In this document: in pieces, positions 58,072 through 64,000 of the stretch
Position numbering within the stretch: the first letter of the stretch is position 1
How the letters are laid out: each line of letters opens with the position of its first letter
Origin: Vicinamibacterales bacterium
GTDB lineage: Bacteria > Acidobacteriota > Vicinamibacteria > Vicinamibacterales > UBA2999
Assembly (NCBI GenBank): GCA_030680175.1
Contig: JAUXWO010000111.1
Coordinates: forward strand, 129,145 to 193,144
Direction of reading: 5' to 3'
Length of the DNA stretch: 64,000 nucleotides
Program-made: the position numbers and the translations under genes
The notes under the pieces: generated by a model
What the model was told of the DNA's origin: nothing
Databases searched by the model: none
The model's input: the letters and a program-made list of their open reading frames with translations, nothing else

Positions 58072-58539
58072 ATGAGCTTGATCGACCCCGGCACGAAGGC
58101 CCCCGCGTTCACCCTCAACGACCAGGAGGGCACTGCCCACTCGCTGTCCGACTACGCCGGCCGCCCCGTCGTCCTCTATTTCTATCCGAAGGACGACACG
58201 CCCGGCTGCACGAAGGAATCGTGCGCGTTCCAGGACAACCTGCCGAAGTTCGAGAAGCTGAAGGCGGCCGTGTTCGGCGTCAGCATCCTCGACGAGAAGA
58301 GCAAGGCGAAGTTCGCGCACAAGTACGACCTCACGTTTCCATTGCTCGCCGACGTGGACCACGCCGTAGCCGAGAAGTACGGCGTCTGGCAGGAGCGGTC
58401 GATGTACGGGCGCAAGTTCATGGGCGTCGCCCGCACCACGTACCTGATCGGCGCCGACGGCAAGGTCGTGCAGCGCTGGGACACGGTCAAGGTGGACGGA
58501 CACGCCGAGGCAGTGCTTGCCGCGGTGAACGCGCTCTGA
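58072..58539 (+). CDS. bcp: Thioredoxin-dependent peroxiredoxin, BCP/PrxQ type
   Basis: 155 residues from ATG 58072 with AGGAG 8 nt before. Peroxiredoxin with peroxidatic Cys46 and resolving Cys51 five residues on (P-G-C-T-K-E-S-C), the atypical 2-Cys PrxQ arrangement. GKFAHKYDLTFPLLADVD and KFMGVARTTYLIGADG are family standard. Detoxifies H2O2 and organic peroxides. Confidence 0.95.
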   Translation: MSLIDPGTKAPAFTLNDQEGTAHSLSDYAGRPVVLYFYPKDDTPGCTKESCAFQDNLPKFEKLKAAVFGVSILDEKSKAKFAHKYDLTFPLLADVDHAVAEKYGVWQERSMYGRKFMGVARTTYLIGADGKVVQRWDTVKVDGHAEAVLAAVNAL

Positions 58540-58561: not shown

Positions 58562-59881
58562 ATGACCCACGCCGCCTCCGATCCGCCTTCCGGCACGACC
58601 CACCTGCACGTCACCGTCCACGGCATGGACTGCGCCGAGGAGGCGGCGCTCGTACGCCGCGCCCTCGCGGATGATCCGGGCGTCCGCGATCTCGACTTCG
58701 ACCTCGTCGGCGGCCGCGTGCGCGTGGTCTACGACGAGGCCGCGACGACGCCGGCGGCGATCGTGGCGGCGATCGGCCGCACGGGCCTCGGGGCGGCGCT
58801 CGAGGGCGAGGTGGAGCACGGCCACGGCCACGATCACGACCATCATCACCACGATCACGATCACGCGCATGGCGCGCCCAGGCTGCTGCTCATCAGCGGC
58901 GCGCTGTTCCTCCTCGGCTGGGGGATCGACGCCTGGCATGCCGACGGCTGGATCGACGCGATCCTGGGCCACGCCCACGTGCCGGGCGACGATGGCGATC
59001 ACGGACGGGTGCCGGCGAGCATGGCCGCCTACGGCTTCGCCCTGGTGGTGGGCCTGTGGCCGACGTGGCCGCGCGCGCTGGCGTCCCTCCGCTACCGGCG
59101 CCTCGACATGCACGTCCTCGTCTGCATCTCGGCGGTCGGGGCGGCGGCGATCGGCCAGTGGTCGGAGGCGGCGGCCGTCGCGTTCCTCTTCGCCCTGGCG
59201 CACTGGATCGAGGCGTGGAGCATCAGCCGCGCGCGGGCGGCGGTGGCCGAACTCGTGGGCCGCGGGCATGATGTCGCCGGGAGCGCGGCGCGGCCGGGCG
59301 CCGGCGTCGAACGCTGGATCGAGCGGTTCGCCCTCGTGTATACGCCGGTCGTCGCCGCCGCCGCAGTCGTCGTCGCCATCGTCCCGCCGCTCGTCGACGG
59401 CCTGTGGGCCGTGTGGTTCTACCGCGCGCTCGTGTTCCTCGTGCTCGCGTGTCCCTGCGCGCTGGTCATCTCCACGCCCGTGACGGTGGTCGCGGCGCTC
59501 ACCTCGGCCGCGCGGCGCGGCGTTCTGATCAAAGGCGGGGGGGCGCTCGAACGGGCCGCCGCGGCCGGGTCCGGCACGCGGGCGGCGCTGGCGGGACGCG
59601 GCGTGATCATCGAAAGCCGTGACGCGCCGGCCGCCGACCTGGCGGCCGCCGACATCGTGTTCGTGGACGAGACCCCGGACACGCTGCCGTGGTTCCAGCG
59701 GCACGCACGGCGTGCGATGCGCGTGATCCACCAGAACGTGTCGATCGCGCTGCTGACGAAGCTGGCCTTCCTCGTCTCCGCGCTCTTCGGCGTCGCCCCC
59801 CTCTGGCTGGCGGTGCTCGCCGACACCGGCGCGACGGTGGCCGTGACGCTCAACGGCCTGAGGCTGCTGCGGGCACGATAG
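58562..59881 (+). CDS. P1B-type ATPase-like membrane protein lacking A-, P- and N-domains
   Basis: 439 residues. Begins like a Zn/Cd/Co ATPase: HMA domain with GMDCAEEA (one Cys, acidic pair) and a His-rich run (11 His in 86-103). Membrane core is kept, including CPC at 297-299, AACPCALVIS context and the closing ADTGATVAVTLNGLRLL helix. But the actuator loop is only about 35 residues (no TGE), and between KGGGALE (about 330) and IIESRDAPAADLAAADIVF (about 349-368) there are about 20 residues where the D-K-T-G phosphorylation site, N-domain and GDGxND should be. It cannot pump by the normal cycle. Clean in-frame edges argue against recent decay. Possible roles: metal sensor, channel, or subunit. 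Confidence 0.85.
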   Translation: MTHAASDPPSGTTHLHVTVHGMDCAEEAALVRRALADDPGVRDLDFDLVGGRVRVVYDEAATTPAAIVAAIGRTGLGAALEGEVEHGHGHDHDHHHHDHDHAHGAPRLLLISGALFLLGWGIDAWHADGWIDAILGHAHVPGDDGDHGRVPASMAAYGFALVVGLWPTWPRALASLRYRRLDMHVLVCISAVGAAAIGQWSEAAAVAFLFALAHWIEAWSISRARAAVAELVGRGHDVAGSAARPGAGVERWIERFALVYTPVVAAAAVVVAIVPPLVDGLWAVWFYRALVFLVLACPCALVISTPVTVVAALTSAARRGVLIKGGGALERAAAAGSGTRAALAGRGVIIESRDAPAADLAAADIVFVDETPDTLPWFQRHARRAMRVIHQNVSIALLTKLAFLVSALFGVAPLWLAVLADTGATVAVTLNGLRLLRAR

Positions 59882-60123
59882 GCGGGGGAACAGCGTCCGC
59901 CTTCGCGGCCGAAAGCCGCTTCGGCGGGACTGGCGAATTGCGAACAGCGAATAGCGAATAGCGTCCGCCTTCGCGGCCGAAAGCCGCTTCGGCGGGACTA
60001 GCGAACAGCGAATAGCGAATAGCGAACTGCGTCCGCCTTCGCGGGCGAAAGCCGCTTCGGCGGGACTGGCGAACAGCGAATAGCGAATTGCGAATTGCGA
60101 ATGTCAGCGAATTGCGAACAGCG
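59882..60123. repeat. 68-bp tandem repeat x3 with hairpins, then GCGAATA array
   Basis: A 39-bp hairpin unit (GTCCGCCTTCGCGG ... CCGCTTCGGCGGGAC) occurs at 59893, 59961 and 60029, exactly 68 bp apart; the 29-bp spacers consist of GCGAATAGCGAA/GCGAACAGC copies. After the third unit the spacer repeat continues (60068-60123) right up to the ATG of the MBL gene. A related hairpin occurs alone at about 40278. The unit copies differ by only one or two bases, so amplification is recent. Confidence 0.9.
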
Positions 60124-61578
60124 ATGTTTCGTCTGACGGCGGTGGTGGCGATCACGGTCGGGGCACTTGGCGTGTCCTCGTGTACGTCAGCGCCCGCGGA
60201 TCCGCTCGCCCGCGTCCGCCGCGCGGCCGACGTGATGGGGGCCACCGCGCTGGCCTCCCTCCGGTACGAGGCGACGGGATCCCACTTCGCGCTCGGGCAG
60301 AGCCCGCGCCCCGATGCCCCGTGGCCCCGCTTTGACGTCCCCTCGCTGACCGTCGAGATCGACTACGCCTCGTCGGCGATGTCGCTCGACCTGACGCGCA
60401 CGGGTGTGGAACCGCCACGCGGGGGCGGCGGCCAGCCCCTGGCCGGCCCCGAACGACGCGTCGAGTTCGTCTCGGGGGCATTCGCCTGGGCCCTGCACGG
60501 CGATCACCCCGTCCCCGAGCCCGCCGTCGCCGCCGAACGCGCCGTCCAGATATGGATGTCGCCTCACGGCTTTCTGAAGGGCGCGCTGGCGCACGACACG
60601 ACGGTCGAGGAGCACGACGATGGGCGGGCGACGGTGCGGTATACGGTGCTCGGGACGCATGTGCTGACGGGGACCATCGACGCGGCGGATCACGTCGAGC
60701 GCGTCGACACGACGATCGCCAGCCCCGTCCTCGGCGACATGCCGGTGGTCTCCGTGTATGACGGGTACGAGACGTTTGCCGGCGTCCGCATGCCGACGCG
60801 CATCCGGCAGGCGATGGGCGGGTTTCCCGTGTGGGACCTGGCCGTGACGGGCGTGACCCCGCAGGCGGCCGTCTCGATCGTGGCCCCGCCCGACGTTGCG
60901 TCGGCGGCGCCGCCGGTTCCCCTTGTCGAACTCGACGAGGTCGAGGAGGGCGTCCACTACGTCACCGGCGGGTCGCACCACAGCGTCGTCATCGAATTCG
61001 GCGACCACATGGCGATCGTCGAGGCGCCGCTCGACGAGGCACGCGCGGAAGCCGTCATCGCGGCGGTGCGGGCGGCGATCCCCGGCAAGGCGATCCGCTA
61101 CGTGATCAACACCCACCCGCACTTCGATCACGCGGGCGGCCTCCGGACCTTCGTGGCCGAGGGCGCCATCGTCGTCACCCACGAGATCAACCGGCCCTTC
61201 TACGAGCGCGCATGGGCCGCGCCGCGAACGCTCGCGCCCGATCGCCTCAGCGAGACGCCGCGGGCGCCGGAGTTCATCACGGTGGACGACTGGCATGAGT
61301 TCACGGACCGCCGCCGGCTCATCGAGGTGCATCACCTCGCCGGCAACGCGCACCACGATGGACTGCTGATGGTCTGGATGCCGCGCGAGCGGATTCTGAT
61401 TCAAGCCGACGCGTACACGCCGGGGCCGGCGGCACTGGCGCCACCGGCCCGAGCGAATCCCTTCAGCGTGAATCTCTTCGAGCACATCCACCGGCTGGCA
61501 TGGCCGGTGGATGTCATCCTGCCGCTCCACGGTCACGCGGCGACGTACGACGACCTCGTGAGGGCGGTGGGGCGGTAG
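60124..61578 (+). CDS. Metallo-beta-lactamase-fold hydrolase, lipoprotein
   Basis: 484 residues from ATG 60124 (MFRLTAVV), giving a signal peptide with lipobox V-S-S-C. The first 280 residues are a beta-rich domain with no name I know. The MBL domain lies at about 285-484: H-x-H-x-D-H (THPHFDHAGG), AGNAHHDG, QADAYTP and the final LHGH. All metal ligands are present. Likely a periplasmic or outer-membrane-facing hydrolase; substrate unknown. Start of ATG is directly abutted by the repeat array, so the leader is repetitive. Confidence 0.85.
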   Translation: MFRLTAVVAITVGALGVSSCTSAPADPLARVRRAADVMGATALASLRYEATGSHFALGQSPRPDAPWPRFDVPSLTVEIDYASSAMSLDLTRTGVEPPRGGGGQPLAGPERRVEFVSGAFAWALHGDHPVPEPAVAAERAVQIWMSPHGFLKGALAHDTTVEEHDDGRATVRYTVLGTHVLTGTIDAADHVERVDTTIASPVLGDMPVVSVYDGYETFAGVRMPTRIRQAMGGFPVWDLAVTGVTPQAAVSIVAPPDVASAAPPVPLVELDEVEEGVHYVTGGSHHSVVIEFGDHMAIVEAPLDEARAEAVIAAVRAAIPGKAIRYVINTHPHFDHAGGLRTFVAEGAIVVTHEINRPFYERAWAAPRTLAPDRLSETPRAPEFITVDDWHEFTDRRRLIEVHHLAGNAHHDGLLMVWMPRERILIQADAYTPGPAALAPPARANPFSVNLFEHIHRLAWPVDVILPLHGHAATYDDLVRAVGR

Positions 61579-61579
61579 G

Positions 61580-62140
61580 CTACCGCCCCTGGCGGCGCTC
61601 CTTCCGCTGATCGGCGCGCTCCTGCTGGCGCTTATCGGCGTCGGCCCGCAGGTCTCGCGCCTTCTGCTGCTGCTCGGGTGTCAGCACCCCGAACACGTCC
61701 CGGTGGACCTGAGCGCGGAGGACCGCGGCGTCGGCCTCGATGGCGGCGAGGTCCGCCGCCCGCTGCCGGACGAGCGCTTCGTTGAACGCGTCGCCGTTCA
61801 CGGCCTCGTCGAGCGCGCGCCGGGCCGCGCCCATGCGTTCGCCCACGGCGCGGAACGCGGCTTCATGGGTCCCCATGATGCCGCGCACTTCCTCGCGCTG
61901 GGCGTCGTTCAGGCCGAGCCGCGCAAGGGGGAGTCCGGGACCGCGTCGCCCGGGTCCGCCGGGTCCGCGCATCCCCGGCCCGCCGGGCCCGCCCGGCTGC
62001 GTCATCCGCTGGCCCTGGCCCTGGCCTTGCCCGCGGCCGGGTCCGCCGCCCTGGGCGGCCACCGAGGCTCCAGTCACTCCCGCGGCCAGCGCCAGGGCAA
62101 GCCCGGCCGAGAGCATCGTGCGTGTGGTGAGTCTCATCAT
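61580..62140 (-). CDS. Spy/CpxP-like LTxxQ periplasmic protein
   Basis: 186 residues from ATG 62140 (MMRLTTRTM; ATG 62137 also possible). Signal peptide ending V-A-A-Q, then a Gly/Gln/Pro-rich low-complexity segment (about 32-70), then a helical domain with R-E-E-V-R-G-I-M and V-L-T-P-E-Q-Q-Q-K, the second LTxxQ-type motif of Spy/CpxP chaperones. Divergent from a response regulator-histidine kinase pair. Converges with the MBL gene 1 bp away. Confidence 0.82.
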   Translation of the reverse strand: MMRLTTRTMLSAGLALALAAGVTGASVAAQGGGPGRGQGQGQGQRMTQPGGPGGPGMRGPGGPGRRGPGLPLARLGLNDAQREEVRGIMGTHEAAFRAVGERMGAARRALDEAVNGDAFNEALVRQRAADLAAIEADAAVLRAQVHRDVFGVLTPEQQQKARDLRADADKRQQERADQRKERRQGR

Positions 62141-62309: not shown

Positions 62310-63041
62310 ATGTCGCGCGTGCTGATCGTCGAGGACGACCGCCACATCCGGGAGCTGATTGTGCTGCACCTCGGACTCGAGGGGCTGGCTTGCACGGCGG
62401 TCGGTGATGGGCACGAGGCGCTGGCGCTGGCGGGCGAGACGGCCTTCGACCTCGTGGTGCTCGATCTGATGCTGCCCGGCGTGGACGGCCTCACGATCTG
62501 CAAGGCCCTCCGTCACGGAGGACCGAACGAAGATGTCCCGATCCTGATGCTCACCGCGCGTCGTGAGGAGTCCGACAAGGTGCTGGGGCTCGAAAGCGGC
62601 GCCGACGACTATTTGGCCAAGCCCTTCGGCGTGCGCGAGCTCGTGGCGCGCGCGCGGGCGCTGCTCCGGCGCCCCCGCGCCTCGGTGCTGCGCGCCGAGG
62701 CGGCCGCGCACTCGGCCGGTGCGGCCGGCCTCGACGAGCGGCCGCTGGCGATCCACGGCATGGAGATCGACCCGGCGCGCCGTCGCGTGCGGATCGCCGG
62801 GCAGGACGTGGAGCTGACCGCGCAGGAGTTCCGGCTGCTCCACGTGCTGGCGTCGCATCCCGGGATCGTCTTCAGCCGCGAGGCCCTCCTGTCGCGCGTC
62901 TGGAGCGACCAGACGTTCGTGACGCCACGGAGTGTCGACACCCTGGTGAAGCGCCTGCGCCGCCGCATCGAGGCCGACCCGGCCACCCCGGCGCGCATCC
63001 TCACCGTGTGGGGCGCCGGCTACAAGTGCGCGGATGTGTAG
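62310..63041 (+). CDS. OmpR/PhoB-family response regulator
   Basis: 243 residues from ATG 62310, after GGAGGG. Receiver domain with E-D-D (8-10), phosphoacceptor D52 (VVLDLMLPG), T in MLTARREE and K in AKPFGVRELV; then a winged-helix trans_reg_C domain (about 150-243) with TPRSVDTLVKRLRRRIE as recognition helix. Partner of the downstream kinase. Its target probably includes the divergent CpxP-like gene. Confidence 0.93.
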   Translation: MSRVLIVEDDRHIRELIVLHLGLEGLACTAVGDGHEALALAGETAFDLVVLDLMLPGVDGLTICKALRHGGPNEDVPILMLTARREESDKVLGLESGADDYLAKPFGVRELVARARALLRRPRASVLRAEAAAHSAGAAGLDERPLAIHGMEIDPARRRVRIAGQDVELTAQEFRLLHVLASHPGIVFSREALLSRVWSDQTFVTPRSVDTLVKRLRRRIEADPATPARILTVWGAGYKCADV

Positions 63042-63140
63042 CTCGCCGTTCGCCGTTCGCCGTTCGCCGTTCGCCGAGAGCCGTTCGCCGTTCGCCGAGA
63101 GCCGATCGCTGATAGCCGAAAGCCGAAAGCCGATAGCCGC
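63042..63140. repeat. Heptamer-type array (GCCGTTC/GCCGATA) inside the two-component operon
   Basis: One-orientation array of CGCCGTTCGCCGTT, GCCGAGA, GCCGATA and GCCGAAA units filling the 99 bp between the regulator stop and the kinase ATG. It leaves no room for another leader, so the kinase must be read through the repeat or start from it. Confidence 0.85.
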
Positions 63141-64000
63141 ATGATCCGCCTCTCCTCCCTCTACCTCCGCATCGGCCTCGGCTTCATCCTGCTGCTGGCG
63201 TTGATGCTGGCCGCGCAGGCGGGGCTCTTCCTGTGGCTGGCCGTGCGGTCGGAGGGGGCGCTGCCGCCGCGCATGCTGGCCGACTTCGCGGATCTGGTGG
63301 CCGACGAGATCGAGGCGGAGGCCGCGCGCACGCCGGGGCTTGATCTGGAGCAGTACGCGCGCACCCGCTTCCCCGAGCTGCACCGGCCGGTGGTCCTCGT
63401 CCTCTCGGACGGACGGCTGATCGCGGAGCAAGGGGCGGCGCTGCCGCCGCCCGTGGCCGAATGGGCGGTGGCGCGTGTCCGTCAAGCGGCTGCGGAGGCG
63501 CCCCCCGCGGGATCCCCGCGCGGACCGGGCCGCCGCGGGGCGCGTCGTGGCCGCCGCATCGATGGGCCCGGGCGCCTTCCCGTGGCGTTCGCGCCGGTCG
63601 TCGTCGACCGCCGGGTGGTGGCGGCCGTGGTGGTGACGCCCCTCCGTCCGTTCGGCCGCGTGATGGAGCAGTTCGCGCCGCTCATCGGTCTCGGCGCTCT
63701 CCTGCTGCTCGTGGGCGGCACGGCGCTGGCCGCCCTGATCGTGTTTCGTCCGGCGCACGCGCGGCTGCGCGCGCTGCAGGAGGCGGCCGACCGCCTGGGC
63801 GCGGGTGATGCCTCGGCGCGCGCGCCCGACGAGGGCGGGGACGAGATTGCGTCGGTGGCGCGCTCGTTCAACCGCATGGCCGGCGAACTGGCCGCACGGC
63901 AGGCCGCGCTCGTCGACGCCGACCGCGCGCGCCGCCAGCTGCTCGCCGACGTGTCGCACGAGTTGATGACGCCGCTGACGGCGATCCGCGGCTACGCCGA
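63141..64000 (+). CDS. Sensor histidine kinase (3' partial)
   Basis: 286 residues to the window edge, from ATG 63141 (MIRLSSLYLRIGLGF). Layout: cytoplasmic leader, helix 1 (about 8-35), a periplasmic sensor of about 145 residues that is short on recognisable folds and contains an Arg/Gly/Pro-rich stretch, helix 2 (about 182-205), HAMP (about 205-258; P-x-x-RLRALQEAADRLGAGD), then the HisKA start with phosphorylated H273 (S-H-E-L-M-T-P-L-T). The ATPase domain is beyond the right end. Partner of the OmpR-type regulator; with the CpxP-like protein this looks like an envelope-stress (CpxPRA-type) set. Confidence 0.88.
   Translation, partial: MIRLSSLYLRIGLGFILLLALMLAAQAGLFLWLAVRSEGALPPRMLADFADLVADEIEAEAARTPGLDLEQYARTRFPELHRPVVLVLSDGRLIAEQGAALPPPVAEWAVARVRQAAAEAPPAGSPRGPGRRGARRGRRIDGPGRLPVAFAPVVVDRRVVAAVVVTPLRPFGRVMEQFAPLIGLGALLLLVGGTALAALIVFRPAHARLRALQEAADRLGAGDASARAPDEGGDEIASVARSFNRMAGELAARQAALVDADRARRQLLADVSHELMTPLTAIRGYA

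Follow-up and report, generated by a model that had tools for sequence, protein, structure and literature searches.

Zinc ATPase Derivatives without Catalytic Domains Form a Conserved Family in Acidobacteria

We describe a family of membrane proteins that derive from PIB-2 (ZntA-type) ATPases and have lost the catalytic domains. Its first member is a 439-residue product encoded at 58562–59881 on the + strand of the window (the whole 64,000-nucleotide stretch of DNA analyzed here), as defined by its ORF, Pfam matches, alignment to ZntA and motif counts. The family is under strong purifying selection, strongest along the metal path, and its motorless core is likely to carry or sense metal independently of ATP. 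By PIB-2 descent and membrane signature the family is PIB-2; by the motifs that define the enzyme it is no P-type ATPase.

Domain Architecture

A single intact frame runs from the ATG at 58562 to the stop at 59881, and its product consists of an HMA domain, a His-rich loop and an eight-helix membrane core (all features on the + strand). The HMA domain (residues 17–75, 58610–58786; PF00403, E 4.9e-11) carries the single-Cys motif GMDCAEE and is detected by Pfam in 18 of the 19 family members. A His-rich cytosolic loop, evident in the sequence (residues 86–103, 58817–58870, HGHGHDHDHHHHDHDHAH), differs in length and His content between orthologues. Between AF2 helices 99–125 and 151–165 lies an expanded, His-containing MA-MB loop (residues 126–150, 58937–59011), which we infer from P-type topology to be on the external side; it is His-bearing in most orthologues and in the sister ATPases of family f8 described below, and short in G148. 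The remainder of the core was placed by alignment. M1-M2 (residues 171–232, 59072–59257) has SsZntA equivalents and the invariant residues H184, V187, E202, F210 and H214; M3-M4 (residues 249–332, 59306–59557) has the CPC motif at 297–299 (59450–59458) and E254, the equivalent of ZntA D348; and M5-M6 (residues 384–437, 59711–59872) has K400 and D421, the equivalents of ZntA K693 and D714.

The catalytic part is missing by several measures. The Pfam E1-E2_ATPase match covers only the last part of the profile (positions 103–181 of 181, the M3-M4 stretch), and the Pfam search of the product found no Hydrolase/HAD domain. Three membrane pieces align with Shigella sonnei ZntA (4umv; 154–236 with 153–236, 243–333 with 337–428, and 376–439 with 669–732), and the alignment skips the ZntA A domain (about 237–336) and the P and N domains. 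TGE, DKTG, GDGxND and TGD occur in none of the 19 members. An aspartyl phosphate cannot form and phosphoenzyme cycling is impossible, in line with the earlier view, taken from the sequence of this one gene, that it cannot couple to ATP in the known way. In the AF2 model the membrane part is of medium confidence (pLDDT 60–75 in M3-M4 and 54–60 in M6); Foldseek matches the model to ZntA (4umw/4umv) and ATP7B, with gapped alignments and low TM-scores.

Two joints replace what was lost. Joint 1 (residues 233–248, 59258–59305; alignments) stands where ZntA has its complete actuator domain of about 100 aa. At joint 2 (with the P-domain remnant, residues 333–383, 59558–59710; alignments and AF2) the stretch from DKTG through GDGxND and the N domain have been removed, and the last beta-alpha-beta is kept. 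When aligned with its nearest full-length relatives, the product lacks the entire A domain (deletion 1) and a second block that starts just before DKTG and ends just past GDGxND (deletion 2). The surviving P-domain tail of 40–50 residues, the last beta-alpha-beta after GDGxND, is retained in 15 of the 19 members, including the product studied here, where residues 331–380 have a pLDDT of about 88–95; it is shortened in the four members from genus g10, most of it being gone. By eye, GVIIES...DLAAADIVFV aligns gap-free with the P-domain end of f8 ATPases (automatic alignments divide the stretch differently). The sequence-only reading had described the core, CPC, HMA domain and His loop as kept and the catalytic domains as gone, with clean in-frame joins. 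The motif counts, Pfam matches and ZntA alignment bear this out except in one respect, the survival of the P-domain tail.

Metal-Path Residues

CPC, E202, N(x)7K and DxG(x)7N (as DTG(x)7N) are invariant in all 19 members, and the earlier claim that the metal path is kept holds across the family. N(x)7K in M5 and DxG(x)7N in M6 are the PIB-2 signature (PMC6305203). In the alignment, C297, C299, D421, K400, E202, F210 and E254 correspond to SsZntA C392, C394, D714, K693, E202, F210 and D348. In SsZntA, C392/C394/D714 make up the metal site, K693 is the built-in counter-ion, E202 the release ligand, F210 a cap and D348 a funnel residue (PMC6305203, PMC8880997). The equivalents of SsZntA C392, C394, D714, K693, E202 and F210 are unchanged in 19/19.

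Other positions have changed. Funnel positions 184 and 214, both Glu in the cytosolic funnel of SsZntA, are His in every member. Of 106 ordinary PIB-2 ATPases, 99 have Asn and seven have His at position 184, and one has His at position 214; none of 11 sister f8 ATPases compared has His at either. Position 187, the cap Met (M187) that acts against backflow, is Met in 106/106 ordinary PIB-2 ATPases and Val in 19/19 family members, which retain the other cap residue, F210. Since the full-length sister f8 ATPases also have Val, V187 predates the domain loss and is ruled out as a mark of uncoupling. These alignments show that the family has kept and remodeled the intramembrane metal path.

Family Membership and Selection

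A first search of relatives gave 13 colinear orthologues, and the family now comprises 18 orthologues with 52%–60% identity, from five genera of one Acidobacteria family. With the source genome this makes 19 carriers among 193 genomes of the class. Conservation of the joints had been named as a check in the sequence-only reading, and both joints are common to all 19 members, in each of which the frame is open. No full-architecture member was found outside this Acidobacteria family in the class (193 genomes) or in a phylum sample (396 genomes), nor did a pattern-based search of GTDB species genomes yield one among the matches listed. Two congeneric genomes, G153 and G154, have no match, but their contigs end at the locus and may have missed a copy.

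Pooled dN/dS is 0.135 for the family, and pairwise values in close pairs are 0.06–0.21. These ratios are rough because some pairs have a moderate or high dS, but the regional ranking is clear. The lowest pooled regional values are those of M1-M2 (0.058), M3-M4 (0.070) and M5-M6 (0.057), followed by the HMA domain (0.11) and by the variable loops and joint 2 (0.16–0.23). The basal member from G021 (L023 / L132) has no HMA domain, its frame apparently beginning just past the stop of the upstream Bcp gene with a short His-rich stub. The HMA domain is thus dispensable in the family, and its loss with the core kept points to the core as the functional part.

Phylogenetic Origin

A tree of the membrane core unites the 19 members in a monophyletic group (FastTree support 1.0; ultrafast bootstrap 89). 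Sister to it are full-length PIB-2 ATPases of family f8 from the same order (support 0.82), with TGES, DKTG and GDGIND intact. This sister clade of full-length f8 zinc ATPases locates the domain-loss event. The tree, taken with the joints that all members have in common, indicates that the A domain and the DKTG-to-GDGxND block, N domain included, were lost once from a full-length PIB-2 zinc ATPase. The simplest history is that the pump was gained or duplicated in an ancestor of the five genera, that the motor was then lost, and that vertical descent followed; we favor vertical descent because the gene order of the locus is common to most carriers with a long enough contig.

The full-length f8 ATPases (for instance G184:C160) resemble the family in V187, S190, W219 and the expanded His-bearing MA-MB loop. 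They differ in their intact TGES, DKTG and GDGIND and in having N184, G214 and Y210 where the family has H184, H214 and F210. The f8 loci L142–L152, L184 and L185 form a divergent PIB-2 subclade with V187, S190, Y210, an expanded His-bearing MA-MB loop and DKTG[IV]xT instead of DKTGTLT.

A separate truncated zinc ATPase, G184:C63 (L140:1435-2919, - strand), resembles the family in its in-frame loss of TGES and the N domain. Unlike the family, it retains DKTG, groups within full-length f8 ATPases (to which it is about 65%–92% identical by segment), occurs in one genome and directly adjoins a Zur-like gene of the Fur family. It looks like an independent, recent truncation. Hence such truncations arise repeatedly, and G184:C63 carries no evidence for function. 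Zur linkage as a trait of the family is ruled out, as among the loci checked the Zur-like gene stands beside G184:C63 only.

Genomic Neighborhood and Proposed Function

Most carriers with a long enough contig share the gene order transketolase, PD40 protein, Bcp, motorless ATPase gene, Metal_resist, response regulator, histidine kinase and ADP/ATP-translocase-like protein (the names transketolase, PD40 and ADP/ATP-translocase-like come from sequence appearance, not from family search). Supply of A, P and N domains in trans from next door is ruled out, none being found among the conserved neighbors. In the window, a metallo-beta-lactamase-fold protein (60124–61578) lies between the gene and Metal_resist and is outside the conserved neighborhood of other carriers. 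The intergenic stretch just 3' of the gene (59881–60120) holds repeats of gcgaacagcgaatagcgaat and cgtccgccttcgcggccgaaagccgcttcggcggga units, and a similar-looking stretch seems to be present at about 63040–63140, in the gap separating the response regulator from the kinase.

The strongest selection falls along the metal path, and metal therefore most probably passes into or through the membrane core. The reading that we prefer, with confidence no better than middling, is that the protein is an ATP-independent divalent-metal permease of the inner membrane, most likely for Zn2+. The HMA domain, the His loop or the expanded MA-MB loop would collect the metal, which would then pass through the H184/H214/E254 funnel, be bound at C297-C299-D421 and exit by E202. 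The driving force might be the metal gradient together with the membrane potential, giving channel-like flow with net uptake or equilibration, or else an exchange of protons via H184/H214 and the K400-D421 pair. We propose a little more cautiously that a P-type ATPase lineage has here lost its entire ATP motor and become a stable, selected ATP-independent metal permease, the two acquired His serving in gating or proton coupling. The comparisons tilt toward a retained metal path, with transport itself a proposed role. An ATP-independent channel, a sensor and a subunit complementing another ATPase were the three options of the sequence-only reading, and each keeps some probability here.

The selected metal site could instead sense or store metal and not move it. 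As a sensor or transceptor, the core would bind Zn2+ and use the HMA domain, the His loop or the P-domain remnant to signal to a partner, for which the nearby two-component system is one candidate. Retention of a metal site without a motor fits this idea, as do three neighbors identified by family search and synteny, which are conserved on the downstream side in most carriers whose contig reaches far enough: a Metal_resist / LTXXQ periplasmic protein (CpxP/ZraP-like, 61580–62140, - strand), an OmpR-type response regulator (62310–63041, + strand) and a sensor histidine kinase, which runs off the window after its N-terminal part (63141–64000, + strand). However, the kinase-regulator pair also occurs in less closely related genera of the family that lack the motorless ATPase gene, the protein has no output domain, its P remnant is eroded in genus g10, and the whole permeation line is conserved down to the exit residue E202, which sensing alone would not need. 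We consider a sensor unlikely on balance.

Less probable again is a partner subunit that does not act alone and serves a full-length P1B ATPase by domain donation, dimer formation or regulation. Full-length P1B ATPases above the NCBIfam cut-off are present in 19/19 carriers, but also in 13 of 14 control genomes, and such co-occurrence says little. No ATPase gene adjoins the motorless one in the loci examined, and G033 has no other PIB-2-like match at E 1e-10, though other P1B ATPases are present. As all carriers keep normal P1B ATPases, the gene supplements these pumps, and replacement of a normal zinc ATPase is ruled out.

A membrane metal store or chaperone, which would load the operon peroxiredoxin, a periplasmic protein or some other client with no crossing of the membrane, seems improbable. 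It would draw on the position of a Bcp-type peroxiredoxin gene (58072–58539, + strand; AhpC-TSA E 3.7e-41), 22 nt upstream of the gene in the window. In 14/19 carriers a Bcp gene precedes the motorless ATPase gene in the same orientation. In 11 of these the two overlap or are separated by no more than about 75 nt, and in three carriers they share a TAGTG stop-start; this arrangement suggests that they are co-transcribed, as probable operon partners. Bcp peroxiredoxins require no metal, however, and genus g21 keeps the gene with no Bcp at the locus.

The sequence-only reading had held that a pseudogene would be indicated by broken frames or by a lack of orthologues with the same joints, and such truncations do arise, as the solitary, recent-looking G184:C63 illustrates, but a pseudogene or assembly artifact is ruled out for practical purposes by 19 genomes with the same joints, open frames, purifying selection and invariant sites.

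Comparison with Known Systems

The family is like PIB-2 (ZntA/CadA-type) Zn/Cd/Pb ATPases in its HMA domain, eight-helix core, CPC, N(x)7K, DxG(x)7N, E202 and an acid at the funnel position of D348. It is unlike them in being without actuator, phosphorylation and nucleotide domains and in its two funnel His. PINA, an expressed splice form of ATP7B, is without the metal-binding domains and the first four helices and keeps the catalytic part (PMC3750203); it resembles the family as a P1B ATPase short of large parts, and its loss is the opposite one. The earlier statement that no described family of this shape is known agrees with our survey of the literature on P-type ATPases without catalytic domains, which found no such published family within partial coverage, most subscription papers lying outside it.

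Implications

P-type ATPases are regarded as pumps whose membrane part serves no purpose unless the A, P and N domains are present. In these five genera evolution has kept the membrane part by itself, under strong selection. The family offers a natural test of what a metal path does without phosphorylation, be it leak, channel, proton exchange or sensing, and it warns that an annotation based on HMA and CPC does not prove an ATPase. If the proposed function is true, a primary pump would have become a secondary transporter or channel through clean domain loss.
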